Below are positions 5,752 to 37,632 of a stretch of DNA of 40,544 nucleotides, piece after piece. How positions within the stretch are numbered: the first letter of the stretch is position 1; every line of letters starts with the position of its first letter. Under the pieces are notes generated by a model. That model was given only the letters and a program-made list of their open reading frames with translations, made no database searches and was not told the DNA's origin. Source of the DNA: Gemmatimonadales bacterium (lineage in GTDB: Bacteria; Gemmatimonadota; Gemmatimonadetes; Gemmatimonadales; GWC2-71-9); contig JAUYMC010000045.1 in the NCBI GenBank assembly GCA_030699545.1, positions 1 through 40,544 on the forward strand. Reading direction: 5' to 3'. Both the position numbers and the translations under genes were made by a program.

Positions 5752-6524
5752 GGCTCGGCCAGCACTTTCTCTCCGACCCCGGGATCCTCGGGCGGATCGC
5801 GGACGCGCTGGACCCGGTGCCCGGCGAGACGGTCATTGAAATCGGGCCGGGAAAGGGAACGCTCACCGAGATTCTGCTCGCCCGCGGCTTGATGGTGATC
5901 GCCGTAGAGAAGGACCGGGCGCTGGCGGAGGAACTGCGTGCGCGGTACGCGGTGCGCGGTGAGCGGGAGAACTTGACCGTGATTGCCGGGGACGCACTGC
6001 GTCTCGACTGGCATCGCTTTCCCGCGCACCGCGCACCGCTCACCGCGCACAAGATCATTGGAAACATTCCGTATTACATCACGTCACCGCTACTCGAGAA
6101 GGCCATGGAGCCGCCCCTCCCGGCCCGGATCGTCTTTCTCGTCCAGGCGGAAGTCGCCGACCGGATCGCGGCGCCGCCGGGCGGCAAGACGTATGGCGCG
6201 TTGTCGGTGGGCGTGCAGGCGGTGTGTCGCGTGGAGCGGTTGTTCACCGTCGCCCCGGGGGCGTTCCGGCCGCCGCCCAAAGTGCGCAGCGCGCTGCTGC
6301 GGCTCACGCCGCTCGCCGAGCCGCTGGTCGCGCCGGCGGAGGCCAAGGCGCTGCGCGCGTTCGTCACGGCGTGCTTCTCGCGCCGTCGCAAGCAGCTGCA
6401 CAACGCCGTGCCGGGGGCCACGGCGGAGGGGTTGCGGGCGCTGGGGTTCGATCCCCGCGCGCGGCCCGAGACGCTCGCGCCGCGGGATTTCGTGCGGCTC
6501 TTGCGCGGCAGTGCGCAATTGTGA
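5748..6524 (+). CDS. rsmA: 16S rRNA (adenine(1518)-N6/adenine(1519)-N6)-dimethyltransferase RsmA/KsgA
   Basis: RsmA dimethylates the two adjacent adenines near the 3' end of 16S rRNA during 30S maturation. The 258-residue protein opens with RLGQHFLSD, then the SAM site VIEIGPGKGTLTEILL, the acidic VEKDR, the IAGDALRLDW segment and the catalytic GNIPYYITSPLL. The C-terminal region has FRPPPKVRSALLRL and FSRRRKQLHNAVPG. TTG 5748 overlaps the phosphatase stop and places the family N-terminus correctly. Mirrored GCGCGGT-type heptamer tracts encode the stretches just before and just after IAGDALRLDW, which is unusual for so conserved a gene. The stop codon lies inside the Rex operator. Confidence 0.95.
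   Translation: MRLGQHFLSDPGILGRIADALDPVPGETVIEIGPGKGTLTEILLARGLMVIAVEKDRALAEELRARYAVRGERENLTVIAGDALRLDWHRFPAHRAPLTAHKIIGNIPYYITSPLLEKAMEPPLPARIVFLVQAEVADRIAAPPGGKTYGALSVGVQAVCRVERLFTVAPGAFRPPPKVRSALLRLTPLAEPLVAPAEAKALRAFVTACFSRRRKQLHNAVPGATAEGLRALGFDPRARPETLAPRDFVRLLRGSAQL
5940..6048. repeat. Mirrored heptamer arms inside rsmA
   Basis: The left arm at 5940-5967 has four 7-nt units (GCGCGGT, ACGCGGT, GCGCGGT, GAGCGGG). The right arm at 6021-6048 has four complementary-type units (CCCGCGC, ACCGCGC, ACCGCTC, ACCGCGC). The 53 bases between them encode conserved rsmA sequence, so the element is not a simple block insertion. Confidence 0.8.
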
Positions 6525-6536
6525 AATAATTCACAA
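6519..6536. promoter_or_regulatory. Rex operator overlapping the rex start codon
   Basis: The 18-mer TTGTGAAATAATTCACAA matches the established Rex site TTGTGAANNNNTTCACAA in every fixed position. It contains the rsmA stop codon (TGA 6522-6524), and its last base is the A of the rex ATG. AATAAT at 6525-6530 inside it resembles a -10 hexamer. If used, transcription would start at or next to the ATG. TTGCGC at 6501-6506 is a weak -35 candidate with an 18-base spacer. Confidence 0.92.
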
Positions 6537-7156
6537 TGCGGAAGATTTCCGACAGTACGATTCGTCGGCTGTCACTGTACCTCCGCTTCCTCGAGCAGGC
6601 CACGACGCAGGGACGCACCACCATATCGTCGGGGGAGCTGGCGAAGCTCGGCGGCACGACCTCCGCCCAGGTGCGCAAAGACCTCTCCTTTTTCGGCTCC
6701 TTCGGCAAACGCGGTCTCGGCTACACCGTTCCCGAGCTCGCCAGCCGCATCCGCGACATCCTCGGCCTGCAGCGCGGCTATCGCGTCGTCCTGGTCGGCG
6801 CCGGCCGCATGGGCGGCGCGCTCGTGCAGTACCAGGGCTTCAAGCAGCGGGGCTTCCACATCGCGGCGATCTACGATCAGGACGCCCGCAAGATCGGCTC
6901 GCGCTGGAACGGCCTCGTGGTGCGCGACGTGCGCCACCTCGAGACCGACCTCAAGAAGGAGCGCAGCGACATCGCCATCGTCGCGACGCCCGCCGACTCC
7001 GCGCAGCAGGTCGTGGACCGCCTCGTGCGCTGCGGCGTCAAGGCCATCCTCAACTTTGCGCCCGTCCCCCTCGCGGTCCCGCCCGACGTGCGCGTCAAGC
7101 ACGTCAACATGGCGCTGGAACTGGAAACGCTGAGCTACGCGCTGGCGAACCGTTAG
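6536..7156 (+). CDS. rex: Redox-sensing transcriptional repressor Rex
   Basis: Rex senses the NADH/NAD+ ratio. NADH binding releases it from DNA and de-repress fermentative and respiratory genes. The 206 residues comprise an N-terminal winged helix (ISDSTIRRLSLYLRFLE, then LGGTTSAQVRKDLSFFGSFGKRGLGY) and a Rossmann NAD domain with VVLVGAGRMGGAL (GxGxxG). The C-terminal helix (VKHVNMALELETLSYAL) swaps between subunits in known structures. The gene starts within a perfect Rex operator, so autorepression is very likely. No Shine-Dalgarno sequence precedes the ATG, in keeping with a leaderless mRNA or coupling to rsmA. The arginine deiminase gene follows after 11 bases. Confidence 0.97.
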   Translation: MRKISDSTIRRLSLYLRFLEQATTQGRTTISSGELAKLGGTTSAQVRKDLSFFGSFGKRGLGYTVPELASRIRDILGLQRGYRVVLVGAGRMGGALVQYQGFKQRGFHIAAIYDQDARKIGSRWNGLVVRDVRHLETDLKKERSDIAIVATPADSAQQVVDRLVRCGVKAILNFAPVPLAVPPDVRVKHVNMALELETLSYALANR

Positions 7157-9263: not shown

Positions 9264-10123
9264 CCCACACGACCTTCCCAATCGGCCACCTCACCTGCCA
9301 TGCTCTGGAGGGCGGTCGGCAGCACTTGGATGGTGGCGCCATGTTCGGCGTCGTGCCCAAGGTGCTGTGGGAGCGGCGGATCCCCGCCGATGCGCGCAAT
9401 CGCATCCCGCTCGCGCTGCGCTGCCTGCTGGTCGAGCATCCGGACGGACTGGTGTTGATCGACACCGGGATCGGCAACAAGGAGAACGAGAAGTTCACGG
9501 ACATCTACGGCGTCGAGAACGCCGGCCAGGGCGGCCGCACGGCGCTCGAGGACGCGCTGGGGGAGCTGGGCCACGCACCGGACGACGTGCGCTGGGTGAT
9601 CAACACGCACCTGCATTTCGATCACGCCGGCGGTGACCGCTGCCGTGATCCCGACGGGACGCTGCGGCTCGCGTTCCCCAACGCCCGCTACGTCGTGCAG
9701 CGGCGCGAGCTGGACTTTGCCGCTCACACCAACGAGCGCACCGCCGGAAGCTATCTCGCCCACACCTTCGAGCACGTGCCGTTCGAGCTGATCGACGGGG
9801 ACGTGGAGGTCCTGCCCGGCATCCGCGCGCTCCCCACCCCCGGGCACGTGCCGTATCACAATTCCATGCTGATCGAGAGCGGGGGCGAGACGGCGTGTTT
9901 TGTCGCCGATCTCGTGCCGACGTCGGCGCATCTGCCGCTGCCCTGGATCATGGGCTATGACCTGGAGCCGCTGGTGACGCTCGAGACCCGGCGCCGGTTA
10001 TACCAGCGCGCCGAGGCGGAGCAGTGGCTGCTGGTGTTCGAGCACGACCCGGTGACGGTGGCGGGGCGGCTGGGGAAAGAGGGCAAGGGTGTCGGACTTG
10101 TAAAGCCTATCACGCTCGGCTAA
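9260..10123 (+). CDS. MBL-fold metallo-hydrolase
   Basis: Metallo-beta-lactamase-fold enzyme of about 287 residues. The zinc-binding motif NTHLHFDHAGG fits HxHxDH, with further ligands probably in TPGHVPYHNSML and CFVADLVPT. A DTGIGNKENEKF segment follows the first strands, and the pattern recalls the quorum-quenching lactonase/AttM-type and related MBL hydrolases. The substrate cannot be told from sequence. ATG 9260 overlaps the exonuclease stop (ATGA). The upstream tract of GTTCCGC units replaces any ribosome binding site, so translation may depend on coupling. The 174-base infC leader follows. Confidence 0.85.
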   Translation: MTHTTFPIGHLTCHALEGGRQHLDGGAMFGVVPKVLWERRIPADARNRIPLALRCLLVEHPDGLVLIDTGIGNKENEKFTDIYGVENAGQGGRTALEDALGELGHAPDDVRWVINTHLHFDHAGGDRCRDPDGTLRLAFPNARYVVQRRELDFAAHTNERTAGSYLAHTFEHVPFELIDGDVEVLPGIRALPTPGHVPYHNSMLIESGGETACFVADLVPTSAHLPLPWIMGYDLEPLVTLETRRRLYQRAEAEQWLLVFEHDPVTVAGRLGKEGKGVGLVKPITLG

Positions 10124-10297
10124 CTTGACGGCCACAATTTGGAAGCGGGCGCAGCGCGCCCCACCCGCATGCCTCTCGCAGGAGAGTGCTCCAGGGTTCG
10201 ATGATCCGAACCCCCGTCCGGGGGTGAGGTTGCGGACTTTGGGTGGGCTACCGAGGTCCGCTTTTGTACGTCCGTAAAGGAGACTGCACACCTGGCC
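10124..10297 (+). promoter_or_regulatory. Structured infC operon leader
   Basis: This stretch without a gene holds several hairpins before infC: CTCTC/GAGAG near 10172, GGTTCG/CGAACC at about 10195-10212, and ACCCCC/GGGGGU at 10210-10225. The last two overlap, so only one can form at a time. A terminator-like stem with a T tract follows, then AAAGGAG at 10276-10282. infC-rpmI-rplT leaders are known sites of feedback by L20 or by attenuation. The same role here is inference. Confidence 0.6.
10232..10265 (+). terminator. Attenuator-like terminator in the infC leader
   Basis: GCGGAC pairs with GTCCGC, and the stem extends with wobble pairs to about 11 bp closed by an 8-base loop. TTTT follows directly. 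Its place upstream of infC, inside the leader, suggests premature termination control instead of simple termination of the hydrolase gene, though it could do both. Confidence 0.65.
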
Positions 10298-10816
10298 ATT
10301 CCTGACAGCAGAGCCCCGCGGACGCGCGTGAACCGGCAGATCCGGATCAGTCCGGTGCGGGTGATCGCGGACAACGGCGATCAGCTCGGCGTGCTGACGA
10401 TCGATGACGCGCTGGCCGCCGCGCACGAACGGGGACTCGATCTGGTGGAAGTCGCGCCGCTCGCCCGGCCGCCCGTCGTCAAGATCATGGATTACGGCAA
10501 GTTCAAGTTCGAGCAGGCGAAAGCGGCGCGGGCCGCGAAGAAAAAGCAGCACGTGATTCATCTGAAAGAAGTGAAATACCGCCCCGGGATCGACGATCAC
10601 GATTTCGATTTCAAGACCCGGCACGCGCGGGAGTTCCTGGTGGAAGGCAACAAGGTGAAAGTGACGATGATGTACCGCGGCCGGCAGATGGCGCACATCG
10701 AGCTGGGCCGGGACGTGCTCGATCGCGTCGCCCTCGAGCTGAAGGACATCGGCAAGATCGAGCAGGAGCCGAAGCTCGAAGGCCGCAACATGTCGATGGT
10801 CCTCGCCCCGAAGTAA
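10298..10816 (+). CDS. infC: Translation initiation factor IF-3
   Basis: IF-3 binds the 30S subunit, prevents premature 50S joining and checks the start codon. The protein has the N-terminal RVNRQIRISPVRVI...LGVLTIDDAL region, a lysine-rich linker (KAARAAKKKQHVIHLKEVKYRPGI) and the C-terminal domain DFKTRHAREFLVEGNKVKVTMMYRGRQM. The first ordinary start is GTG 10328. I prefer ATT 10298, which adds ten residues (IPDSRAPRTR) matching the basic stretch that precedes VN/IN in homologues. An AUU start with self-discrimination by IF-3 is established in other bacteria. AAAGGAG lies 15 bases upstream of the ATT, a rather long spacing. GTG 10328 remains the alternative. Confidence 0.93.
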   Translation: MPDSRAPRTRVNRQIRISPVRVIADNGDQLGVLTIDDALAAAHERGLDLVEVAPLARPPVVKIMDYGKFKFEQAKAARAAKKKQHVIHLKEVKYRPGIDDHDFDFKTRHAREFLVEGNKVKVTMMYRGRQMAHIELGRDVLDRVALELKDIGKIEQEPKLEGRNMSMVLAPK

Positions 10817-10826
10817 GGAGTCTGGG

Positions 10827-11018
10827 ATGCCGAAGATGAAATCCAAGCGCGCCCTGCGGAAACGGGTGCGCCTGACGGGCACGGGCAAGATGCGCCGCTA
10901 TCGCGCCTACAAGCGGCACATCGCGACCAAGAAGCACCCCAAGCGGAAGCGTCACCTGCGCAAGGCGACGCTGGTTTCGCACGCCGAGCGGCGCCTGAAG
11001 CGCCTGCTCATGGCCTAA
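10827..11018 (+). CDS. rpmI: 50S ribosomal protein L35
   Basis: The 63-residue basic protein starts [21 protein letters not shown] and contains [16 protein letters not shown], the L35 pattern, with RLKRLLMA at the end. Length is standard. An AAGGAG signal lies upstream of the ATG, ten bases after infC. It sits in the usual infC-rpmI-rplT order, so control by the infC leader is likely. Confidence 0.97.
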
Positions 11019-29472: not shown

Positions 29473-29556
29473 GCCCGGGTGGCGAAACTGGTAGACGCAA
29501 GGGACTTAAAATCCCTTGGGGGCAACCCCATGCAGGTTCGAGTCCTGCCCCGGGCA
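29473..29556 (+). tRNA. tRNA-Leu, anticodon UAA
   Basis: The acceptor stem is GCCCGGG/CCCGGGC with discriminator A. The anticodon stem AGGGA/TCCCT closes the loop CTTAAAA with TAA at positions 34-36. A long variable arm (GGGGGCAACCCC) marks a class II tRNA, and GGTTCGAGTCC forms the T arm. CCA is not encoded. Leu tRNA 3' ends are common integration sites, and an integrase remnant lies 0.9 kb downstream. Confidence 0.96.
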
Positions 29557-29618
29557 CTAGGAGACGCAACGAGTTACGCGAGATCGACGATTTGGCGTCG
29601 CGGGGAGTGTACCCCAAA

Positions 29619-30396
29619 GTGAGCCAGACCAACGCAGTCCAGCTGCCGCATTGGCTAGAGATCGCTCAAGTCGTCGCGGGGATCGGTTGGAAGGTCGCAC
29701 TCGGTGCCGTGGCGGTTGCGCTTAGTCCGCGACTCTGGCGAGCGCTTCGGACGTGGCAGGATGTCCAAACGGCGCAACTCAGAGCAGAGCGGGACATCGA
29801 GAGCCAGAGACGAGAGGCTGTCGAGAGTGCTCTAAATTTAGCAGCCGACTCCATGGCAACGCTCGAACGAGAGTCCTCATCCCTTAAGCGACAGCTCGAT
29901 GGTGCAGCTGCCAAAACAGAAAGAGTTCAGCTCGGAGATCCCAAGCATGCAACCGAACTGCGCGCAATTCTCGCAGAACTCATGTTCACCGCCGTCGCCC
30001 TGGAGATCGTCCATCGAGCTTCGGAGGTTGGCGCCTTTTTCGCCAAGCCCTTTGCCAAGAAGCCGTCAGCCGAGTCGGATCGGCAGGTGCAGGATGCGTA
30101 TCACCTAGCAGGAATGGCTCTTCTCCTCCCGACCTTATCAAAAGGGGCTTGCGGGTACGATAGCCAAAACCGTCTACGCGGTTGCCGCCGTCGCGCCAGA
30201 CCCGGAGAAAGCCATCGCTGAAGCGCGCGATGTTGTTGCCGCTAATCCGGAGTTCCCAAAACTCCAGGCCCTCGGCTCTACGATCTACCCGCAGATGACA
30301 GTAGCGAAGCAATTCGGCTTGCCGATCGAAGCACCCGAGAGGGTGCGATTGAACGAGTGGATCGTGTACGATCGTAGTAAGCTCCAGAAGAAATAA
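29619..30396 (+). pseudogene. Frameshifted gene for a membrane-anchored coiled-coil protein, unknown function
   Basis: Frame one runs from GTG 29619 (or TTG 29592) and encodes a hydrophobic segment (IAQVVAGIGWKVALGAVAVAL), a charged coiled coil (LRAERDIESQRREAVESALNLAADS...LERESSSLKRQL) and a helical part (ELRAILAELMFTAVALEIVHRASEVGAFF). Near AAAAGGGG at 30140-30147 the coding signal moves to the +1 frame. It continues as GLAGTIAKTVYAVAAVAPD, then FPKLQALGSTIYPQMTVAKQ, to YDRSKLQKK and TAA 30394-30396. In frame one the protein ends 30221 after meaningless residues. One extra base in the run explains this. It could be a mutation or a base-calling error. I recognise no family. Confidence 0.6.
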
Positions 30397-30404
30397 GGGA
30401 GACA

Positions 30405-30444
30405 CAAAGCCGCCCGACTCGGTGCTTCTGAGCCGGGCGCTTTG
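30405..30444. terminator. Bidirectional intrinsic terminator
   Basis: CAAAGC/GCTTTG, then GCCCG/CGGGC and CTC/GAG, form an interrupted stem of about 14 bp. Short A and T runs at its ends suit both directions. It lies between the plus-strand frameshifted gene and the minus-strand integrase remnant, as expected for a convergent pair. Confidence 0.65.
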
Positions 30445-30449
30445 CCTTA

Positions 30450-30545
30450 TTAGGCGAGCTTCGCGAGCTTCGTCACCCCCTCGCGCAGGTCCGCCTCGGC
30501 GACGATCGCGTAGCGCCGATAGATCGCTTCCGTTTTGTCCACTGA
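30450..30545 (-). pseudogene. C-terminal remnant of a phage-type tyrosine integrase
   Basis: Only 31 codons remain: VDKTEAIYRRYAIVAEADL, then REGVTKLAKLA and TAA. This is the familiar end of tyrosine integrases, where the segment after the conserved G-H reads like HKTxxIYxRYxIV and the RY tyrosine is the nucleophile. The catalytic GH itself is replaced by VD, and everything upstream is gone. The upstream HTH gene's stop codon abuts it in the same frame. The fragment points toward tRNA-Leu, the normal arrangement for an integrated element. It cannot be functional. Confidence 0.7.
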
Positions 30546-30992
30546 TTATGCCGCGCGTTTCTTCGCGCGTTCAGCCCCAAGCGCCACTGTGTTCGCGTGC
30601 TTCACGATCCGCTCGAACAACGGCGAAAAATCGAAAGCGTTCGACCGACCGACGCGGGCAATCCGATGAAGGAAACCCTTGCCCTCGAGACTCCTAGCGA
30701 GTTTCCGGGCGTACTGCTCCGTGACGCCCATCCGGCTGGCGATCTTCTTGTATCCGGGGTACGGTGCGTCCTGGTCCCACTTGAAGCACATCACCTCGAT
30801 AACGAACAGCATCTCGGCCACGGTGAGGCAGTAGGGCTTGAGCTCCGCGCACGCGGTGAGGAAGTTCACCGGCACGCCCACAAACCCCTTCGACACGATG
30901 ACTGGGTCGCCACCCCAGCGTGTGGCGATGTCGCGTTTGGGAGTCGTAACCTCGACGACTTCTAGCTGGTGCTTCTTGGCCTTGCGTCTCAT
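30546..30992 (-). CDS. Helix-turn-helix DNA-binding protein, phage/plasmid type
   Basis: A 148-residue protein with a basic start (MRRKAKKHQLEVVEVTTPKRD), a central part (FVGVPVNFLTACAELKPYCLTVAEMLFVIEVMCFKWDQDAPYP) and a winged-helix region: GYKKIASRMGVTEQYARKLARSLEGKGFLHRIARVG, with the recognition helix near EQYARKLARSLE. This layout is common in phage and plasmid replication or regulatory proteins. No closer family is recognisable. ATG 30992 has GGAG eleven bases upstream. An 8+8 inverted repeat lies in its leader at 31008-31041. It may be a remnant regulator or replication protein of the integrated element. Confidence 0.72.
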   Translation of the reverse strand: MRRKAKKHQLEVVEVTTPKRDIATRWGGDPVIVSKGFVGVPVNFLTACAELKPYCLTVAEMLFVIEVMCFKWDQDAPYPGYKKIASRMGVTEQYARKLARSLEGKGFLHRIARVGRSNAFDFSPLFERIVKHANTVALGAERAKKRAA

Positions 30993-31007
30993 ACACAATC
31001 TCCAATT

Positions 31008-31041
31008 CGCCCCGCGAGGGCACTTATTGTGAGGCGGGGCG
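31008..31041 (-). promoter_or_regulatory. Inverted repeat in the leader of the HTH gene
   Basis: CGCCCCGC at 31008-31015 and GCGGGGCG at 31034-31041 are exact reverse complements separated by 18 AT-richer bases. They lie 16-49 bases upstream of the HTH start. This may be an autoregulatory operator or an RNA hairpin. Confidence 0.45.
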
Positions 31042-31070
31042 AGCAAGGCTCTAGGTAACAAGCCATCCTG

Positions 31071-31411
31071 GCCGACCAAGGTCCGGGTCGCGCACCGAAA
31101 CGCGAGATCGCTCCGCAATGCTCGGTGGGTTAGTACTGTCCCGTTACTTAATTGCGGCTGAGGTGCGTCGCAACATACGAGCAGGGCGCGGTGCCCTCTC
31201 ACGTTCGACGGGATCTTGACCCTGACTGTTACCGTTACCTGGCTCTGCTTAGGTATGCCTCTGGTAACGGGGTTGCGCGCCCTGAGTAGCGGGGGAGTGA
31301 GCCGCCGGTATGAGACGGGGGCGTCACAAGGTGATTGTCCCTACGACGACGGACTCGTAGAATACGGCGCCGACCAAGGCCCGGTCGCGCATAACGCGTT
31401 GACCGCGAGGA
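31071..31411. repeat. Non-coding stretch with a direct repeat and an inverted repeat
   Basis: No convincing gene is present. GCCGACCAAGG plus a CCGG-type and GTCGCGCA segment occurs at 31071-31093 and again at 31369-31391, with small differences. Each copy can form a CGACC/GGTCG hairpin. Between them CCGTTACC (31232-31239) and GGTAACGG (31263-31270) are exact inverted repeats, and CTACGA/TCGTAG frames 31341-31360. The stretch could be a structured RNA or a protein-binding array. Confidence 0.5.
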
Positions 31412-31413
31412 AG

Positions 31414-31443
31414 GCCGATGAGCGCTCTCGCTCGTCGGCTTTT
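31414..31443 (+). terminator. Strong intrinsic terminator
   Basis: GCCGATGAGCG pairs with CGCTCGTCGGC (11 bp, one wobble) around loop CTCT, followed by TTTTCTACTTT. No plus-strand protein gene ends nearby, so it probably ends a non-coding transcript that starts somewhere in the preceding 200-300 bases. Confidence 0.75.
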
Positions 31444-31464
31444 CTACTTTCCCGAACAGCGTCT

Positions 31465-31525
31465 CGGGAGCACCGTGGCATTATCGCCACCTCATAGAGT
31501 TGGCCTGCCAACCAGGCTGCTCCCG
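31465..31525. other. Three-way-junction-like structure
   Basis: An outer 8-bp stem, CGGGAGCA (31465-31472) with TGCTCCCG (31518-31525), encloses two hairpins: GTGGC-ATTATC-GCCAC (31475-31490) and TTGGCCTGCCAA (31500-31511). The nested arrangement is unlikely to be casual and would fold on either strand. Function is unknown; candidates are a structured RNA or a cruciform recombination or replication site. Confidence 0.5.
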
Positions 31526-31563
31526 CGTTTCGGCTCATCTGGCGTGCGCCTGGATGCGCCTGA

Positions 31564-31722
31564 CGCTGCTCTCCTTACACGCCGCTGATCTTCCCTACCA
31601 ACGTACCCACGTGGCCGATCTGCACATCGTACGAGGTGGCCTACGCACGGCGCACGCAGCAGAAGAACGGCAAGGAGCCGAAGGCAGAGGAAGGCGTGAG
31701 CACGGCGCCCGACGACTCGTGA
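31564..31722 (+). CDS. Possible 3' remnant of a small gene
   Basis: Open frame of 52 codons after an in-frame stop, without an ATG, and with GTG only at 31636. The end (SYEVAYARRTQQKNGKEPKA, then EEGVSTAPDDS) has protein-like composition, and its TGA overlaps the GTG of the next small ORF as GTGA, a coupling pattern seen elsewhere in the window. This may be what is left of a longer gene. No family recognised. Confidence 0.25.
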   Translation, partial: RCSPYTPLIFPTNVPTWPICTSYEVAYARRTQQKNGKEPKAEEGVSTAPDDS

Positions 31723-31931
31723 CGCCGTACGTCCGAGCGGCGCTGGACGAGCTGCTGTCCCTGACGGAGCGGACCCCCGCGCTGATCGAGTGCTGCCCGC
31801 CTCTGACTGACGCCATTGCGCGACTCACGCACGCGCTCGTGGTCTTGGAAGGACAGGCCCCGTGGCCGCCCGGGCGTGGCGACACGGGGCTGACGATCAA
31901 CGGGCAGCCCGCATCGCACGACGCGCGGTAA
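31719..31931 (+). CDS. Small hypothetical protein
   Basis: A 70-residue protein from GTG 31719: a helical first half (YVRAALDELLSLTERTPALIECCPPLTDAIARLTHALVVLEG) and a Pro/Gly-rich second half ending NGQPASHDAR. The GTG overlaps the stop of the preceding remnant. The frame extends upstream to 31500 with Arg/His-rich sequence that does not look coding. An AACGCCA/TGGCGTT inverted repeat follows the stop. No family recognised; it may be a phage-like small protein. Confidence 0.4.
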   Translation: MTPYVRAALDELLSLTERTPALIECCPPLTDAIARLTHALVVLEGQAPWPPGRGDTGLTINGQPASHDAR

Positions 31932-31976
31932 AACGCCACGCCCTTCATTAGAGCTGGCGTTGAGGTCAGATCGGTA

Positions 31977-32008
31977 CGTTTACAACCGCATCGCCCCGTT
32001 TACGACCG
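31977..32008 (+). promoter_or_regulatory. Tandem operator-like repeats upstream of the methyltransferase
   Basis: CGTTTACAACCG at 31977-31988 and CGTTTACGACCG at 31997-32008 differ by one base and are spaced exactly 20 bases apart, about two helical turns. This spacing suits two protein dimers on the same face. They lie 73-104 bases before the methyltransferase start. The binding protein is unknown. Confidence 0.45.
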
Positions 32009-32080
32009 TAGCACCAGAACCGTGAAAGTGCCTTAACTTCTGTTGGACTCCCCTTTGCCCTAGGAGCCTTCGTTTCATCT

Positions 32081-33037
32081 ATGACGCAAACACGACTCGC
32101 ATTCGGCGCGCCGTGGTCCGGGGAAGGCGTGCTCGGACGGAGCGGGGAACCCCTGCGCCCGATCTACGCGACGCACCTCGGAGTGCTGTTCCAGGGCGAC
32201 TGCCTCGCCGTGCTGCCCGACATCAACGACGGGACGGTGGACACGGTGTTCGCCGACCCGCCGTTCAACCTGGGCAAGGTCTACGGCGGCTCGGTGGACG
32301 ACGAGCGCCCGGATCACGAGTACCTCGACTGGTCGCAGCGCTGGATTGACGAGTGCATCCGCGTGCTCCAGCCAGGCGGCGCCTTCTTCCTCTATAACAT
32401 CCCCAAGTGGAACATCCCGCTGGGCGCGTACCTGATGAACCGCGGGCTGACGTTCCGAAATTGGATCGCGGTCAACATCAAGTTCGGCCTGCCGATCCCG
32501 AAGCGCCTGTACCCGTCCCACTACAGCCTGCTCTACTTCACGAAGGGCAAGACCAAGACGTTCCGCAGCATCCGCACGCCGATCGAGACGTGCCGCCACT
32601 GCGGGAAGGAGATCAAGGACTACGGCGGGCACCGCGACGCGATGAATCCGAAGGGCGTGAACCTGACCGACGTGTGGAACGACATACCGCCCGTGCGTCA
32701 CTGGAAGTTCAAGAGCAAGAAGCGCAAGACCAACCAGCTGTCAACGAAGCTCATCCGCCGGTGCGTGGAGCTGTCGAGTCGTCCCGGGGAACTCGTGCTC
32801 GACCCGTTCGGGGGAAGCGGCACGACGTACGACGTGTGCGAACATGCGGGCCGGCACTGGATCGGGATGGAAGTGGAGAAGGAGAGTTGCGACATCATCA
32901 TCGAGCGGTTGGCGAGCGGAAACCTGCACCACCACCCGGCGCACGACCGCGTGGATGAGCAGGACGACGAGCCGGATACCGACTACGTCGAGGACGTCAG
33001 CCCTTCGCGCGGCCCGCCGTCATCTTCGGAATCTTAG
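32081..33037 (+). CDS. Site-specific DNA methyltransferase, beta class (N6-A or N4-C)
   Basis: The 318-residue protein carries motif IV DPPFNLGK at residues 59-66 before motif I DPFGGSGTT at about 241-249, the order of beta-class enzymes (N6_N4_Mtase). DPPF is usual for N6-adenine methylation. HYSLLYFTKGK and VWNDIPPVRHWKFKSKKRKTNQLSTKLI match the type II cognates, and a CRHCGKEI pair of cysteines may bind metal. The C-terminus is acidic and low-complexity. Its last 41 bases overlap the convergent nuclease gene. The target sequence cannot be inferred. Adjacency to a nuclease argues for a type II restriction-modification pair. Confidence 0.9.
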   Translation: MTQTRLAFGAPWSGEGVLGRSGEPLRPIYATHLGVLFQGDCLAVLPDINDGTVDTVFADPPFNLGKVYGGSVDDERPDHEYLDWSQRWIDECIRVLQPGGAFFLYNIPKWNIPLGAYLMNRGLTFRNWIAVNIKFGLPIPKRLYPSHYSLLYFTKGKTKTFRSIRTPIETCRHCGKEIKDYGGHRDAMNPKGVNLTDVWNDIPPVRHWKFKSKKRKTNQLSTKLIRRCVELSSRPGELVLDPFGGSGTTYDVCEHAGRHWIGMEVEKESCDIIIERLASGNLHHHPAHDRVDEQDDEPDTDYVEDVSPSRGPPSSSES

Positions 33038-33608
33038 GTACGCTCGTGCTCTCCGCGTCCTGCTCGACCACGATGATCCGCAGCACGCCGTTCGCGACGG
33101 GGTAGCCGCCCCAACCGGCGAGGTAGGGCCGCAGCTCGCGGATGTTGCCGATTCGGTCTGTGAGATAGGCGGCGAGCTTGGTGCTCGGCACTACGAGGAA
33201 TCCGCCGACGAGGTCGCCGCGCCCGAGCGCCTGGATCAGCTTGTTCAGCGCGCGGTGGCTGGACGAGATGTTGCCGGTCTCCCACTCGAAGCCGACCCAG
33301 CCCGCTGACGTCTCGATCAGCGCGTCGAGGCCGCCCGTGCGCAGCACGCCCTGCTTCTCAGGGGGCAGCCCCTCCTTGCGCCAGCCGCAGTCCTTGAGCG
33401 ACGCCACACAGGGGAGCTTGATCGGCACGACGCCGTTGCCCATGTCGCGTTTCTTGCCCGACTCGGGATAGATCGTGAACGTCCCGGAGCCGTGCGGCCA
33501 GTCGGTCGCCTTGATCGCCTTCTCCACGTCGGCGCTGACCTTTGCCCACTCCGCTGAGGCGGGGAAGGTGCCGTTGGCGAACACGTCCAGTGTCTCGATG
33601 ATCCTCAC
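32997..33608 (-). CDS. Probable type II restriction endonuclease, BamHI/BglII-like
   Basis: A 203-residue protein with a PD-(D/E)xK-type core of the ExE variety: D95 in GGLDALIE, then E108 and E110 in GWVGFEWETGN, and a basic helix (SSSHRALNKLIQALGRG) before GGFLVVPSTKLAAYL. BamHI has D94, E111 and E113 with the same ExE layout, so the class is credible, though sequence similarity is weak by eye. GTG 33608 is the start used. An ATG at 33648 lies in another frame. It is convergent with, and overlaps, the methyltransferase. That restriction activity is cancelled by that methylase is inference. Confidence 0.65.
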   Translation of the reverse strand: MRIIETLDVFANGTFPASAEWAKVSADVEKAIKATDWPHGSGTFTIYPESGKKRDMGNGVVPIKLPCVASLKDCGWRKEGLPPEKQGVLRTGGLDALIETSAGWVGFEWETGNISSSHRALNKLIQALGRGDLVGGFLVVPSTKLAAYLTDRIGNIRELRPYLAGWGGYPVANGVLRIIVVEQDAESTSVPKIPKMTAGRAKG

Positions 33609-33647
33609 GGTCTTGGAATGTGGGGGCGCTCGCGTTTTTCTGCACCA

Positions 33648-33676
33648 TTGATCTGCGGCCGTGGCGTGGCCATATT
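33648..33676 (+). promoter_or_regulatory. Promoter for the winged-helix/HEPN operon
   Basis: TTGATC at 33648-33653 and CATATT at 33671-33676, each 4/6 matches, are separated by 17 bases in the gap between the divergent nuclease gene and the operon. A leader of about 45 bases with AGAGG precedes ATG 33729. Confidence 0.45.
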
Positions 33677-33728
33677 TTGAGGCCCGAAGACTTTCCGAAC
33701 CGCAGGTCAAGGAAGCAGAGGTGTACCG

Positions 33729-34364
33729 ATGGCCAAGCTTACCGTTTCCCCCTCTAACCGCTCGAAGGTGCGCCTGTTCTTCGTTGACGCCGATCTGGCG
33801 CCGGGCGACATGCACGAGCTGACGAACGCGCTGACCAGCGCCATCCGCCCGACGCACATCGTCACGCGCACGGGCGCGCTTCAACAGATCGCGCCGCCAA
33901 CTCCCCCGCCCGCCAACGGCAACGGTCGCGGCGCGAGCGAGCAGACCGACCTGCTTGATGAGCAGTCCGAGCTCGCCGACGAGAGCGATGAACCCGAGGT
34001 GCTGACGCCGAAGGCGCCCGCGACGGCACGGCGCTACAAGACGCCGCAGATCGTGGTGATGGACATGAACGCGGGCGGTAAGCCGTTCGAGGAGTTCGCC
34101 CGGGAGAGGGCGCCGGTCTCCCACCGTGATAAGTATCTCGTGGCGGCGACCTGGTGCCAGGAGTACGCGAAGGAGGAAGGGATCACGCCGGGCCATATCC
34201 TGACGTGCTACAAGGCGGCGGACTGGACGTTCGACGTTACCGATCCCGCCGTGGCGCTACGGCAGCTGAAGGCCGAGCGTCTGTTGGACGCGGCGGGGCG
34301 CGGCAAGTTCAAGGTCAATCACCTCGGCCTCGCCGCGATCAAGAAGATGAAGCCCGGCGCGTAA
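33729..34364 (+). CDS. Unrecognised protein with acidic linker and C-terminal winged-helix-like domain
   Basis: The 211-residue protein has three parts. Residues 1-50 form a small folded region (SKVRLFFVDADLAPGDMHEL). Residues 51-105 are a Pro/Asn- then Asp/Glu-rich linker. Residues 115-211 are a compact domain (SHRDKYLVAATWCQEYAKEE, GITPGHILTCYKAADW, ALRQLKAERLLDAAGRGKF, KVNHLGLAAIKK). The last part reads like a winged helix: helix, helix with CY, helix, then a GxGxF/Y hairpin. The same pattern opens the next protein. First gene of an operon divergent from the restriction nuclease. No family recognised. A role in sensing or DNA/RNA binding is inference. Confidence 0.7.
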   Translation: MAKLTVSPSNRSKVRLFFVDADLAPGDMHELTNALTSAIRPTHIVTRTGALQQIAPPTPPPANGNGRGASEQTDLLDEQSELADESDEPEVLTPKAPATARRYKTPQIVVMDMNAGGKPFEEFARERAPVSHRDKYLVAATWCQEYAKEEGITPGHILTCYKAADWTFDVTDPAVALRQLKAERLLDAAGRGKFKVNHLGLAAIKKMKPGA

Positions 34365-34375
34365 GCAGCCCCCGC

Positions 34376-35131
34376 GTGGACGCGACCGAGTTCGTCCGAC
34401 AGCTTCCGAATTTCGCGGCTAAGAACCACCCGGAGCGGATCAAGGCCTTCGGGTGGTTCTTACATTCGCAGGGCACTGGTCGCTTCACCGCGGTGGACAT
34501 TCGGCGGTGCTACGATGACGCACACCTCGACAAGCCCGCCGACATGAACCGCTTCCTCGCGTCCCTCGTAGAAAAGCGACCGCCCGAGCTCTTGAAGGAT
34601 GGTACCGGCTATCGGCTAGCACAGGAGACGCGCGAGCTGCTAGACCGGACGCTCGGGAAGGTGGAGCAGGTGCTCCTCGTAGAAAAGGTGCTCACCGACC
34701 TACAGGACGAGCTGTCAGACGAGGGCGAGCGCGTCTTTTATGACGAGACCATCAAGTGCTACCGTGCCGGGGCGCTGCGTGCGGCCATCGTGATGACGTG
34801 GAACCTCGCCTACGACCACCTCGTGCGGTGGGTGCTCGCCGACGCGCGAAGACTCGACAGCTTTAACGCGGGGATCGCGAAGCGAAATCCCAAAAAGGCG
34901 CACGTGCAGATCACGAAGCGGGAGGACTTCGAGGAGCTGAAGGAGGACGAGACGGTGGACATCGTGGGGAACGTGCCAGGCATTACCACCAACATGAAGC
35001 GCATCCTGAAGGAGAAGCTCGGACGTCGGAACAGCTACGCGCATCCCTCGACTCTGAAGATCGAGCGCGCACAGGTGGACGATATGATCACTGAGCTTGT
35101 GAACAACGTTGTGCTGAGGCTCCAGCTATGA
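34376..35131 (+). CDS. Protein with winged-helix-like N-terminus and HEPN-type C-terminus
   Basis: A 251-residue protein from GTG 34376. Residues 15-90 (ERIKAFGWFLHSQGTGRFTA, VDIRRCYDDAHL, FLASLVEKRPPELLKDGTGY) repeat the pattern of the upstream protein's C-terminal domain. Residues 115-251 are helical: FYDETIKCYRAGALRAAIVM, AYDHLVRWVLADARRL, then RNSYAH at 218-223, which fits the R-x4-6-H motif of HEPN domains. HEPN proteins are often RNases in toxin-antitoxin and abortive infection systems, but inactive binders also exist. It lies 11 bases after its partner, and its stop overlaps the next gene's start. Defence function is inferred. Confidence 0.72.
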   Translation: MDATEFVRQLPNFAAKNHPERIKAFGWFLHSQGTGRFTAVDIRRCYDDAHLDKPADMNRFLASLVEKRPPELLKDGTGYRLAQETRELLDRTLGKVEQVLLVEKVLTDLQDELSDEGERVFYDETIKCYRAGALRAAIVMTWNLAYDHLVRWVLADARRLDSFNAGIAKRNPKKAHVQITKREDFEELKEDETVDIVGNVPGITTNMKRILKEKLGRRNSYAHPSTLKIERAQVDDMITELVNNVVLRLQL

Positions 35132-35715
35132 CTCCTAGAGAACTACTGCTGCCCGCGGCTATCTTGCTCAGCGCCGTGCTGCCAATCGCCGCCCAAGCTC
35201 AGGTAGCCACGGAGTCCACGTTCGCGCGCCTGCTTCGCGCCCCGCAGACCAACCCCGTGCGCGACTCCTTGTGGGACATAGTCGGTAAGGCTCCCGCTGG
35301 CGACCGGGACTCGCTGCGCAGGCTGGTGATGGCCCGCCGCCCATTAGGACGTGACGAGGCTCCCGCCGCTAGCACGCTCACCGCCGGACGCATGTACTTC
35401 GGCGACCTCGTCGGCGACGGACACAAGCGAATCCGCGCGTGGGCGAGAGACTACGGCTGTGACTCGGCGCGCGTCGAGGCCACGCTCGCGAAGGCCGACA
35501 CGACGGATTTTGCCGAATGGGCGCCAGCACGACCACGGGTTGGTGACGGGGTCTGCGCCCTGCTCCTCGCGCGCGGCGTTCCTTACGGCAAGCGGCGCAT
35601 CAGCAACGCGAGCGGCGAGACGGAGTTCTGGTTTTACGCCGCTGGCGGGGGCGGGCTCAACGTGTGGCTGCGCTGGGATGGCCGCCGCTGGGTCATCACG
35701 CAGATAAGTCGCTAA
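35128..35715 (+). CDS. Exported protein of unknown function, third gene of the HEPN operon
   Basis: A 195-residue protein with a clear signal peptide (MTPRELLLPAAILLSAVLPIAAQAQ). The mature part has a helical first half (FARLLRAPQTNPVRDSLWDI, AGDRDSLRRLVMARR), a MYFGDLVGDGHKRIRAWARDYGCDSARVEA segment and a C-terminal beta-rich end (ETEFWFYAAGGGGLNVWLRWDGRRWVITQISR). Two cysteines (YGCDS, GVCALLL) could form a disulfide. The ATG overlaps the HEPN stop as ATGA, which ties a periplasmic or exported product to two cytoplasmic ones. No family recognised. Confidence 0.65.
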   Translation: MTPRELLLPAAILLSAVLPIAAQAQVATESTFARLLRAPQTNPVRDSLWDIVGKAPAGDRDSLRRLVMARRPLGRDEAPAASTLTAGRMYFGDLVGDGHKRIRAWARDYGCDSARVEATLAKADTTDFAEWAPARPRVGDGVCALLLARGVPYGKRRISNASGETEFWFYAAGGGGLNVWLRWDGRRWVITQISR

Positions 35716-35721
35716 GCGACC

Positions 35722-35821
35722 ATGCCCAACGCCGAGGAGAAGTTTCAGTGGATCGTCAGTCTCGTACGCGACGCGGCGCGTCGCGCAGCGCCCGCCAGGA
35801 CTTCTTGAGCGCGGTGAACAT
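35722..35821. pseudogene. Short gene fragments in both directions
   Basis: On the plus strand ATG 35722 opens 28 codons (MPNAEEKFQWIVSLVRDAAR to TGA 35808), protein-like at first and then broken. On the minus strand 35821-35756 encodes MFTALKKSWRALRDAPRRVRD and stop, which looks like the start of another gene. Both appear truncated and mark a recombination scar. Confidence 0.3.
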
Positions 35822-35884
35822 GGAGGTGACGCGGCCGCTGTCGCTTGTGACAGGCGCATGGGTCGCTCCGAGTTTGGGGGATGG

Positions 35885-36781
35885 TTACGGACTGCCCCAC
35901 AACGACGTGAGGTTTTGGCCGAGCGTGTCAACTGTCCAAAGCGACTGCTGGGTGCCGAGTAGGCGAGTAATGACAAGCCGGCTGCCGTCCTGAAACCACT
36001 GCGGGTAGGAACCATCGGCGGCAATGCGCTTGTGTGCGCTGCCATCTGGATTCACTAGCCAAATCTCGTTCGCTGTGCCGCCTGAGCGGACGTATGCCAG
36101 GCGGTTTCCGAGCGGGCTCCACGCAGGATGCGTCAGATCTCGGTCCGGAATCATGATTACCGACGTGTCCGTGCCGTCGAGACGCGTGAGGAAGAGCGCA
36201 AAGGTGCCCGCGGCCCTCGTGGCGACGAGCCTCGCGCCGTCCGGTGCCCAGTCCGGCTCGCGTAGCTCGTCACGCGGCGGTCCTGGTAGCGGCACGCGCG
36301 TAGCGGTACCACCAGCCGCCGGCACAGTCCAGAGGTCTGGTGGGCCCGAGAACGGTGCGGCGCTCGAAAAAGCCAGCGTCGCACCGTCGGGCGAGAACGT
36401 CGGCCCGTACCCCTCGGCAATGTCACTTACGTCACCAGTGGGCAACGCGATGGTGACGATGCTCCCGCCCTCATTCGCCGCTAGCTTCGAACCGTCAGGC
36501 GACCAATCGCCGCCAAAGCCACCAACCAACAGCAACTGCCTCTCTGTTCCATCTAATCGAGCCCGATACAGCGACGGCAGGCCAGTGCTATCCAGGTGAT
36601 CGAACACGACCCACGCGCCGTCCGGACTCACGGAGGCATTTAGGTCGCCGGTGACTGCGGGTGGCGACGGGATTGGCTCGGCCCCTCTGCATGCTATGCC
36701 AAATGATGCCACGGTGCACAGCGTGGCGACGGCCGTTAGGGTCGATCGCTGTCGGGCGAGAAGGACGACGAGTCGGTTCAC
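35885..36781 (-). CDS. TolB-like beta-propeller lipoprotein
   Basis: The 298-residue protein has a lipoprotein signal ending VASFGIAC, followed by WD40-like PD40 repeats: ASVSPDGAWVVFDH, DWSPDGSKLAANE, TFSPDGATLAFSS, DWAPDGARLVATR, AWSPLGNRLAYVR and QWFQDGSRLVITR, about six blades. Such proteins resemble the TolB propeller but lack its N-terminal domain; many are periplasmic or surface proteins of unknown role. GTG 36781 is the start. The sequence ends cleanly at LTSLWGSP. A fragment homologous to one of its repeats lies 22 bases upstream of its start on the same strand. Confidence 0.8.
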   Translation of the reverse strand: MNRLVVLLARQRSTLTAVATLCTVASFGIACRGAEPIPSPPAVTGDLNASVSPDGAWVVFDHLDSTGLPSLYRARLDGTERQLLLVGGFGGDWSPDGSKLAANEGGSIVTIALPTGDVSDIAEGYGPTFSPDGATLAFSSAAPFSGPPDLWTVPAAGGTATRVPLPGPPRDELREPDWAPDGARLVATRAAGTFALFLTRLDGTDTSVIMIPDRDLTHPAWSPLGNRLAYVRSGGTANEIWLVNPDGSAHKRIAADGSYPQWFQDGSRLVITRLLGTQQSLWTVDTLGQNLTSLWGSP

Positions 36782-36803
36782 GGGAGCCGGAGGTTAAGGG
36801 CTA

Positions 36804-36923
36804 TCATGAGTCGCCTCTGCCGAAGCTGGTGAAGGACAATACCGCTCCATCAGGTGACCAAACCGGCGCGAATCCCTGCGCGACTACGGTGACATCACCG
36901 GTTCGGAGGGCCGCGATCAAGGT
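36804..36923 (-). pseudogene. Fragment of a second TolB-like propeller gene
   Basis: The minus-strand frame ends with [20 protein letters not shown] and [18 protein letters not shown], then stop. This matches a blade of the neighbouring lipoprotein (IVTIALPTGDVSDIAEGYGP, TFSPDGATLAFSS). The similarity begins abruptly near 36920, where plus-strand ArsM-like sequence starts soon after. It is a gene remnant. Confidence 0.55.
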
Positions 36924-36956
36924 GCTCGGCGGCGGGGCCTGCGGCTGCGACCCCGT

Positions 36957-37115
36957 GACCGACAACTCGCCAACCAGGCCAACGCGGCAGTGACCAACGT
37001 CGAATTCCTGAAGGGGGAGATCGAGAACATCCCCCTCCCCGACGCCGCCGTGGACGTGATCATCTCCAACTGCGTCATCAATCTGTCCGCCCACAAAGGC
37101 CGAGTATTAGCCGAG
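36957..37115 (+). pseudogene. Internal fragment of an ArsM-type arsenite methyltransferase gene
   Basis: The plus-strand frame reads [53 protein letters not shown]. This corresponds to the central part of arsenite S-adenosylmethionine methyltransferases, where [24 protein letters not shown] is conserved. Both flanks of the gene (SAM site before, C-terminal half after) are absent, and the frame then runs into unrelated sequence to 37194. Not functional. Confidence 0.65.
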
Positions 37116-37174
37116 TACGAAAGGAAGCGCATCATGGGAGCGTTCGTTCGCGCGCGGAGACCGTCCACCCTCCC

Positions 37175-37202
37175 GGCCCGGCATCAGCTGTGATGCCGGG
37201 CC
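37175..37202. terminator. Strong hairpin at the right end of the island
   Basis: GGCCCGGCATCA and TGATGCCGGGCC form a perfect 12-bp stem with loop GCTG. Only two Ts follow, so termination is likely but not canonical. It separates the gene debris from the lipoprotein-kinase operon. Confidence 0.55.
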
Positions 37203-37257
37203 TTGCCCATCCCCCTCGCCAGACCCCACTATAGCAGTCCTCTTTCGGGGTGCGTCG

Positions 37258-37632
37258 ATGCCGCGGTGGCCGTTGTCCGGCGGCTTGGGAATCCTTGCCA
37301 GCCTGCAGCTGGCCGGTTGCGGATTTGGCGACCTCTTCCGGGCGCCAGGTCCGGCCGACGGCGTGCTGTTCGTTTTCCAGAGTGACACCCTGCTGGACGT
37401 CGGCGATACCGTCCCCCTCGTGGTCGCCGTCATCGCCGACGGGCAGATGCTGCCGAATCCCCGGATCGTCATCGCCTCGTCCGACACGACCCGACTCGCC
37501 GTCACCCCCGCCGGCGACGCCGTGATTGGCGTGCGCCAGGGACTGGCCGACCTCGACGTGCGGCTCGTGGGCTCCATCATCACCGGCGAGCCTCCCGACA
37601 CCGTCCAGCGCTTCCGGGTGGTGCCGCAGTGA
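37258..37632 (+). CDS. Small lipoprotein, Ig-like (Big-type) fold likely
   Basis: A 124-residue protein with a lipoprotein signal ending LQLAGC, predicted to be anchored in a membrane. The mature part is beta-rich (GVLFVFQSDTLLDVGDTVPLVVAVIADGQML, RIVIASSDTTRLAVTPAGDAVIGVRQGLADLDVRLVG), with the spacing of bacterial Ig-like domains such as Big_2. The stop overlaps the kinase start, so it may be a surface component of the same signalling unit. Family assignment is by pattern only. Confidence 0.65.
   Translation: MPRWPLSGGLGILASLQLAGCGFGDLFRAPGPADGVLFVFQSDTLLDVGDTVPLVVAVIADGQMLPNPRIVIASSDTTRLAVTPAGDAVIGVRQGLADLDVRLVGSIITGEPPDTVQRFRVVPQ

Follow-up and report, generated by a model that had tools for sequence, protein, structure and literature searches.

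PD-T7-3 is a phage-defence protein (Vassallo et al. 2022, PMC9519451), and BxaP, which is found beside restriction-modification (R-M) and BREX systems, acts by abortive infection (PMC10799925). In the type IX retron retron-Kva2, a winged-helix protein, a reverse transcriptase (RT) and msDNA sequester a HEPN RNase dimer, which is released by a phage protein of similar winged-helix fold (PMC13405049). The locus analysed here resembles these systems in its predicted domains and is arranged differently from all of them. It lies in the window, by which we mean the whole stretch of 40,544 nucleotides that was analysed and that corresponds to contig C72 of a 3.16-Mb assembly. The features used below are as follows.

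29473-29557: tRNA-Leu
29558..37344, strand not applicable: genome-specific island, from the tRNA-Leu 3' end to the kinase region; the genome G249, of the same genus, lacks it
32081..33037, plus strand: DNA methylase of N6/N4 type (PF01555, E 1.3e-46); neighbouring defence gene
32997..33608, minus strand: BamHI-family restriction endonuclease (PF02923, E 2.4e-39); neighbouring defence gene
33729..34364, plus strand: gene A, 211 aa, an open reading frame (ORF) that adjoins B in relatives; small N-terminal beta-alpha segment, acidic linker at about 66-95, C-terminal winged helix at about 118-208
34079..34352, plus strand: winged-helix domain of A (residues ~118-208), matching the N-terminal domain of B
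34376..35131, plus strand: gene B, 251 aa, GTG start, from ORF, profiles and AlphaFold2 model; N-terminal winged helix (18-81), predicted HEPN domain (83-246) with R218-N219-x3-H223
34427..34618, plus strand: winged-helix domain of B (residues 18-81), from hhalign and AlphaFold2
35027..35044, plus strand: HEPN motif R-N-S-Y-A-H, R218 to H223
35128..35715, plus strand: gene 3 (P0003), exported protein of 195 aa; it adjoins the module without being conserved with it

A and B are conserved as a two-gene unit. When 84,980 species genomes and IMG/VR were scanned, 61 further loci emerged, and in these relatives the end of A either overlapped B or lay at most 50 nt from it. The first-pass annotation had grouped the winged-helix protein and the winged-helix/HEPN protein together and had asked whether the genes co-occur elsewhere, as the 61 coupled relatives indicate. 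The gap between the two genes, which is 11 nt in the window, had a median of -14 nt and was 20 nt or less at 59/61 loci, and an ORF stood directly before B wherever the contig extended upstream. When A profiles built from half of the A proteins were applied to the remaining loci, they recovered the neighbour at 31 of 32 test loci, with hardly any other matches; at the single miss (L005), a winged-helix gene was still present at that position. Furthermore, A and B distances covaried, with Mantel r values of 0.83 and 0.61 in subfamilies I and II (described below), respectively, and 0 of 2000 permutations were as high.

The layout had initially been described as a three-gene operon with its own promoter, of which the coupling of A and B stood and the membership of gene 3 did not. 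P0003 lacks convincing relatives (weak matches only, in 3 of 120 other genomes), and at 37 loci the gene downstream of B is on the opposite strand, only 7 loci having a gene in the same orientation as B at 60 nt or less, so that gene 3 was rejected as a member of the module. The ATGA by which gene 3 was said to be joined to B in the window was confirmed, the overlap lying at 35128. As for the promoter, none was found by a sigma-70-type consensus scan of 33400-35900, other promoter types being outside that scan.

A domain common to the C-terminus of A and the N-terminus of B, noticed from the sequence at the outset, was recovered by two approaches, and its fold is predicted to be a winged helix. 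Specifically, hhalign aligned the two regions over 87 columns with a probability of 93.7 (E 2e-7), and family-II A aligned with B with a probability of 72 (E 3.5e-5); AlphaFold2 gave the order H-H-H-E-E in both A (132-206) and B (18-81). The AlphaFold2 model of A was confident over the winged helix and poor over the N-terminus and acidic linker, and Foldseek matches of A were mostly winged-helix proteins. The net charges of the winged helices were +4 and +1, neither being strikingly basic.

For B, AlphaFold2 returned a model of mean pLDDT 94.6 in which the winged helix is followed by a helical domain (83-246). RNSYAH, read in the first-pass annotation as a HEPN-type R-x4-H, spans R218 to H223, and the alignment showed R-N-x3-H-P (R218, N219, H223 and P224) to be invariant in the 61 relatives; both an all-helical bundle (model and profile) and a conserved R-x4-6-H (61 sequences), which characterise the HEPN superfamily, were thus found. 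The B profile matched the solved HEPN domain of Dandelion with E 3e-6. When 40 B and 38 A proteins (the A/B set) were scanned, the PADLOC model of PD-T7-3 gave 37 matches, with a best E of 2.7e-10. The HEPN proteins 2q00, HepT 7bxo/6m6u, 5yep and 2hsb were among the best Foldseek matches of B, all weak at E ~1, and no confident match was obtained by Foldseek against viral models. We therefore assign the C-terminal domain of B to HEPN by sequence, more on the invariant motif, the Dandelion profile and the PD-T7-3 matches than on Foldseek, and by the same comparisons it is related to PD-T7-3 and Dandelion. Since the motif is invariant across deep divergence, we infer selection on catalysis by B, which is probably an RNA-cutting effector. 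Note that single-sequence scans against Pfam, NCBIfam and PHROG gave chance-level matches only (MscS_TM, BcsO and others). No Pfam, NCBIfam or PADLOC model was found for A or for the whole of B, and profile searches placed neither protein in a housekeeping family; such a placement would have spoken against the original proposal.

The relatives fall into two subfamilies. In subfamily I, which includes the window, A is about 200 aa long and has the acidic linker, which was noted at the outset and carries a net charge of -8 over residues 66-95 in the window protein; it was kept in 24/24 subfamily-I A proteins, at net -6 to -12 per 40 aa. In subfamily II, A is about 170 aa long and starts with KIRxKxGxxExEYEG, and the linker, which the first-pass annotation had suggested could mimic nucleic acid, is weak or absent in most proteins. 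The N-terminus of A is exchanged among relatives, being a beta-alpha hairpin, a zinc ribbon or an extra winged helix. For instance, A has an N-terminal double zinc ribbon at L020 (7106-7981) and L040 (6878-7975), and the A proteins of L038 and L040 have an additional winged-helix-like stretch.

A also occurs without B. Solo A genes lie downstream of lepA in G502 and G477 (L157 6322-6867 and L158 6646-7149, plus strand), each followed by a tiny Lys-rich ORF (MPKKQSS...); therefore, A would not be only an antitoxin for B. At the same spot downstream of lepA, the genome G347 (L147, contig C1) has at 6274-6846 on the minus strand a B-like HEPN ORF (E 4e-13) without a winged helix, and with a different partner upstream, which we take by eye to resemble DUF5343. 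In the Gemmatimonadota genome G099, a family-II A homologue (E 2.9e-38) lies beside a different putative HEPN protein, which has the motif R-N-N-R-D-A-A-H and its own C-terminal winged helix. This locus (L145, contig C40, 5686-9361, minus strand) comprises five genes, encoding a methylase, a probable PD-(D/E)XK restriction endonuclease (REase), the A homologue, the putative HEPN protein and a second A-like winged-helix protein, and is a second instance of A adjoining R-M-like genes. A degraded A-like gene with a broken frame was seen in G061 (L146, contig C64, 6882-7158, minus strand); a tyrosine integrase gene (9675-10955) lies some 2.5 kb away. These few cases hint that A-type proteins are modular partners; that they make up a whole class of winged-helix control subunits pairing with unrelated HEPN effectors is a tentative extension, and we hold it to be rather less probable than its opposite. 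If it were true, docking of winged helix on winged helix would be a common RT-free restraint on HEPN RNases, and swaps of the A N-terminus would alter what is sensed.

In the window, the pair and a BamHI-type R-M system share an island of about 7.8 kb between tRNA-Leu and a Ser/Thr kinase gene. The restriction nuclease that had been described as divergent from A is the BamHI-family endonuclease listed above, with 120 nt between its GTG and the ATG of A; its methylase comes next to it. The 3' end of the tRNA, at 29558, is where the alignment with G249 breaks off; it restarts at 37344 after only 157 nt in that genome, indicating that the ~7.8 kb are a genome-specific island; other relatives have different inserts or none at the tRNA-Leu site. 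This site (29473-37344) is variable in the genus, being empty in G249 and probably in G195 and occupied by a TonB-receptor/SusD-like pair in G251. No integrase was recognised within the island, no flanking att repeats of at least 12 nt were found at its right end, and a search with Rfam, which covers few retron RNAs, found tRNA-Leu only. A minus-strand gene of the island, at 30546-31202, encodes a product weakly similar to DnaD/MarR-like winged helices (E 2e-4), which perhaps serves the island in replication or regulation. Near the right end, a short ORF (36990-37193, plus strand) resembles part of a SAM-dependent methyltransferase of the arsenite-methyltransferase type and is possibly a remnant.

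The defence context, which the first-pass annotation had marked as inference, gained substance from the neighbourhoods of the relatives. Among 150 genes near subfamily-I pairs and 150 near subfamily-II pairs, 84 and 197 PADLOC families, respectively, were matched at E<=1e-8, against 8 families, mostly generic models, among 140 control genes of the same genomes, most of them on the same contig at a distance of 60 kb or more; PADLOC R-M models are redundant and inflate these counts, so the contrast is qualitative and not a ratio. Neighbours include type I, II and IIG R-M, DRT, HEC-06 and, by Pfam, GmrSD. The three R-M types and DRT, together with several candidate systems, were seen near the pair only and not among control genes. 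Most loci lie outside obvious defence islands.

The pair is sporadic and scattered over many bacterial phyla. B was found in 5 of 249 Gemmatimonadota genomes; an alphaproteobacterial family had it in 6 of 199, a partial HEPN match being all that one of these six gave, and it was present as a single copy in 20/20 carrier genomes checked. In the tree, hosts of several phyla are intermingled, which is consistent with transfer. Among 72,556 plasmid records, one carried a full-length match (a pair on an Ochrobactrum plasmid) and a Spirosoma record gave a partial match. The pair was absent from the 50,697 phage records searched, and some IMG/VR contigs, which are putatively viral, carry it.

Taken at the level of sequence, the pair is probably a phage-defence system. 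The reading we prefer, with a probability of roughly 0.6, is that A and B make up a standalone two-gene, toxin-antitoxin-like abortive-infection module, in which B would be the RNase effector and A would restrain B and sense infection. B would act as a HEPN RNase dimer with R218 and H223 in the active site, and A, made first, would keep it inactive. Given that A always accompanies B, is read before it and has the related winged helix, A most likely binds and silences B and releases it upon infection; the likeliest contact would pair the C-terminal winged helix of A with the N-terminal one of B, in line with the suggestion of the first-pass annotation that the matched domains might let the two proteins bind each other or the same ligand. 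That a winged-helix protein can contribute to restraining a HEPN RNase dimer is known from type IX retrons (PMC13405049). The exchangeable N-terminal segment of A, together with the linker, would be the likely sensing part; a phage product would bind or displace A, and B thus freed would cut cellular RNA, perhaps tRNA, so that growth would stop.

The main rival, to which we give about a third of the weight of the preferred reading, is a plain type II toxin-antitoxin role in island addiction without phage sensing, A being a labile antitoxin and autorepressor and B a HEPN toxin. Two small overlapping genes with the presumed antitoxin first are the layout of such systems, MNT-HEPN pairs share this gene order (PMC3710099), and the pair was seen on an island and a single plasmid. 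In addition, the A/B set gave at least 13 weak PADLOC matches to AbiEi, the winged-helix antitoxin of AbiE. However, a pair so rare on plasmids (1/72,556 full-length) and absent from the phage records fits addiction poorly, whole defence systems are among its neighbours, and the exchanged N-terminus of A is more sensor-like than expected of a simple antitoxin.

The two further explanations are each improbable. A retron-like or nucleic-acid-gated module, in which A would take the part of the type IX winged-helix protein with nucleic acid supplied from elsewhere, would account for the pairing of a winged-helix protein with a HEPN RNase known from those retrons (PMC13405049), for one protein of the A/B set that matches PADLOC HTH_IX (3e-4) and for the matches of RT models to a neighbouring gene at one or more subfamily-I loci. 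Nevertheless, the only RVT_1 match of the genome is on contig C380 and none is on the window contig, the island holds no known ncRNA besides tRNA-Leu, and B has the contiguous R-H motif that type IX HEPNs do not. Alternatively, the two winged-helix proteins might be a transcription regulator without a role in defence, the HEPN domain serving as a non-catalytic dimerisation domain, and both do carry winged helices and A alone resembles MarR-type folds; yet this is at odds with a catalytic R-N-x3-H invariant over deep divergence, with a patchy distribution and a relative whose site is empty, and with a defence-gene neighbourhood above that of the control. If the preferred reading, an abortive-infection module of A and B, is true, the pair would be a small HEPN defence system of two genes, widely but patchily distributed and unnamed in Pfam, NCBIfam and PADLOC, whose RNase is silenced by a matched winged-helix partner and not by RT/msDNA, a nucleotidyltransferase or a CRISPR complex, and the exchangeable A N-terminus would make the sensed trigger directly testable.

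Compared with described systems, B shares with PD-T7-3 and BxaP a HEPN domain of the DUF4145/PF18735 kind. However, these are single proteins with an N-terminal HEPN, whereas in B the HEPN is C-terminal to a winged helix, the protein is smaller and an obligate separate partner is present. Over the 432 positions of the PD-T7-3 model, the B of G003 covers 8-121 and the window protein 7-45 (E 0.0054); B was not classed as PD-T7-3, its match falling short of full length and its gene being coupled to A at the loci examined. In Dandelion (PDB 9wx2, 9wxf), the E, R, W and R/H-P positions align with those of B, but that protein has 460 aa, was deposited with 12 chains and matches within its first 130 residues only. 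Type IX retrons likewise have one winged-helix protein and one HEPN RNase per operon; however, they require RT, for which the window contig gave no match, and msDNA, for which Rfam gave none in the island, and their HEPN is small (19 kDa), with a non-canonical active site. The window module was rejected as a type IX retron for want of an RT on its contig. MNT-HEPN (MntA-HepT) systems also place a partner gene before a HEPN gene, and HepT is among the fold matches of B, but their partner protein is a nucleotidyltransferase, in contrast to the winged-helix protein A. In AbiE the antitoxin also comes first, and some A proteins weakly resemble AbiEi in their winged-helix portion, at a best E of 0.0013; the AbiE toxin, however, is a nucleotidyltransferase and not a HEPN protein. 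Some EC042_2821-type wHTH-HEPN-REase proteins have a winged helix N-terminal to HEPN and an R-M context, but they are single proteins with an REase domain, and no A-like partner is described for them (PMC3710099). A literature search, which left most subscription papers outside its reach so that absence is not proof, found no account of the pair and no Dandelion paper. Arrangements in which a partner restrains a HEPN RNase are known, and the pairing of a winged-helix protein with a winged-helix/HEPN protein looks like a new version of them.
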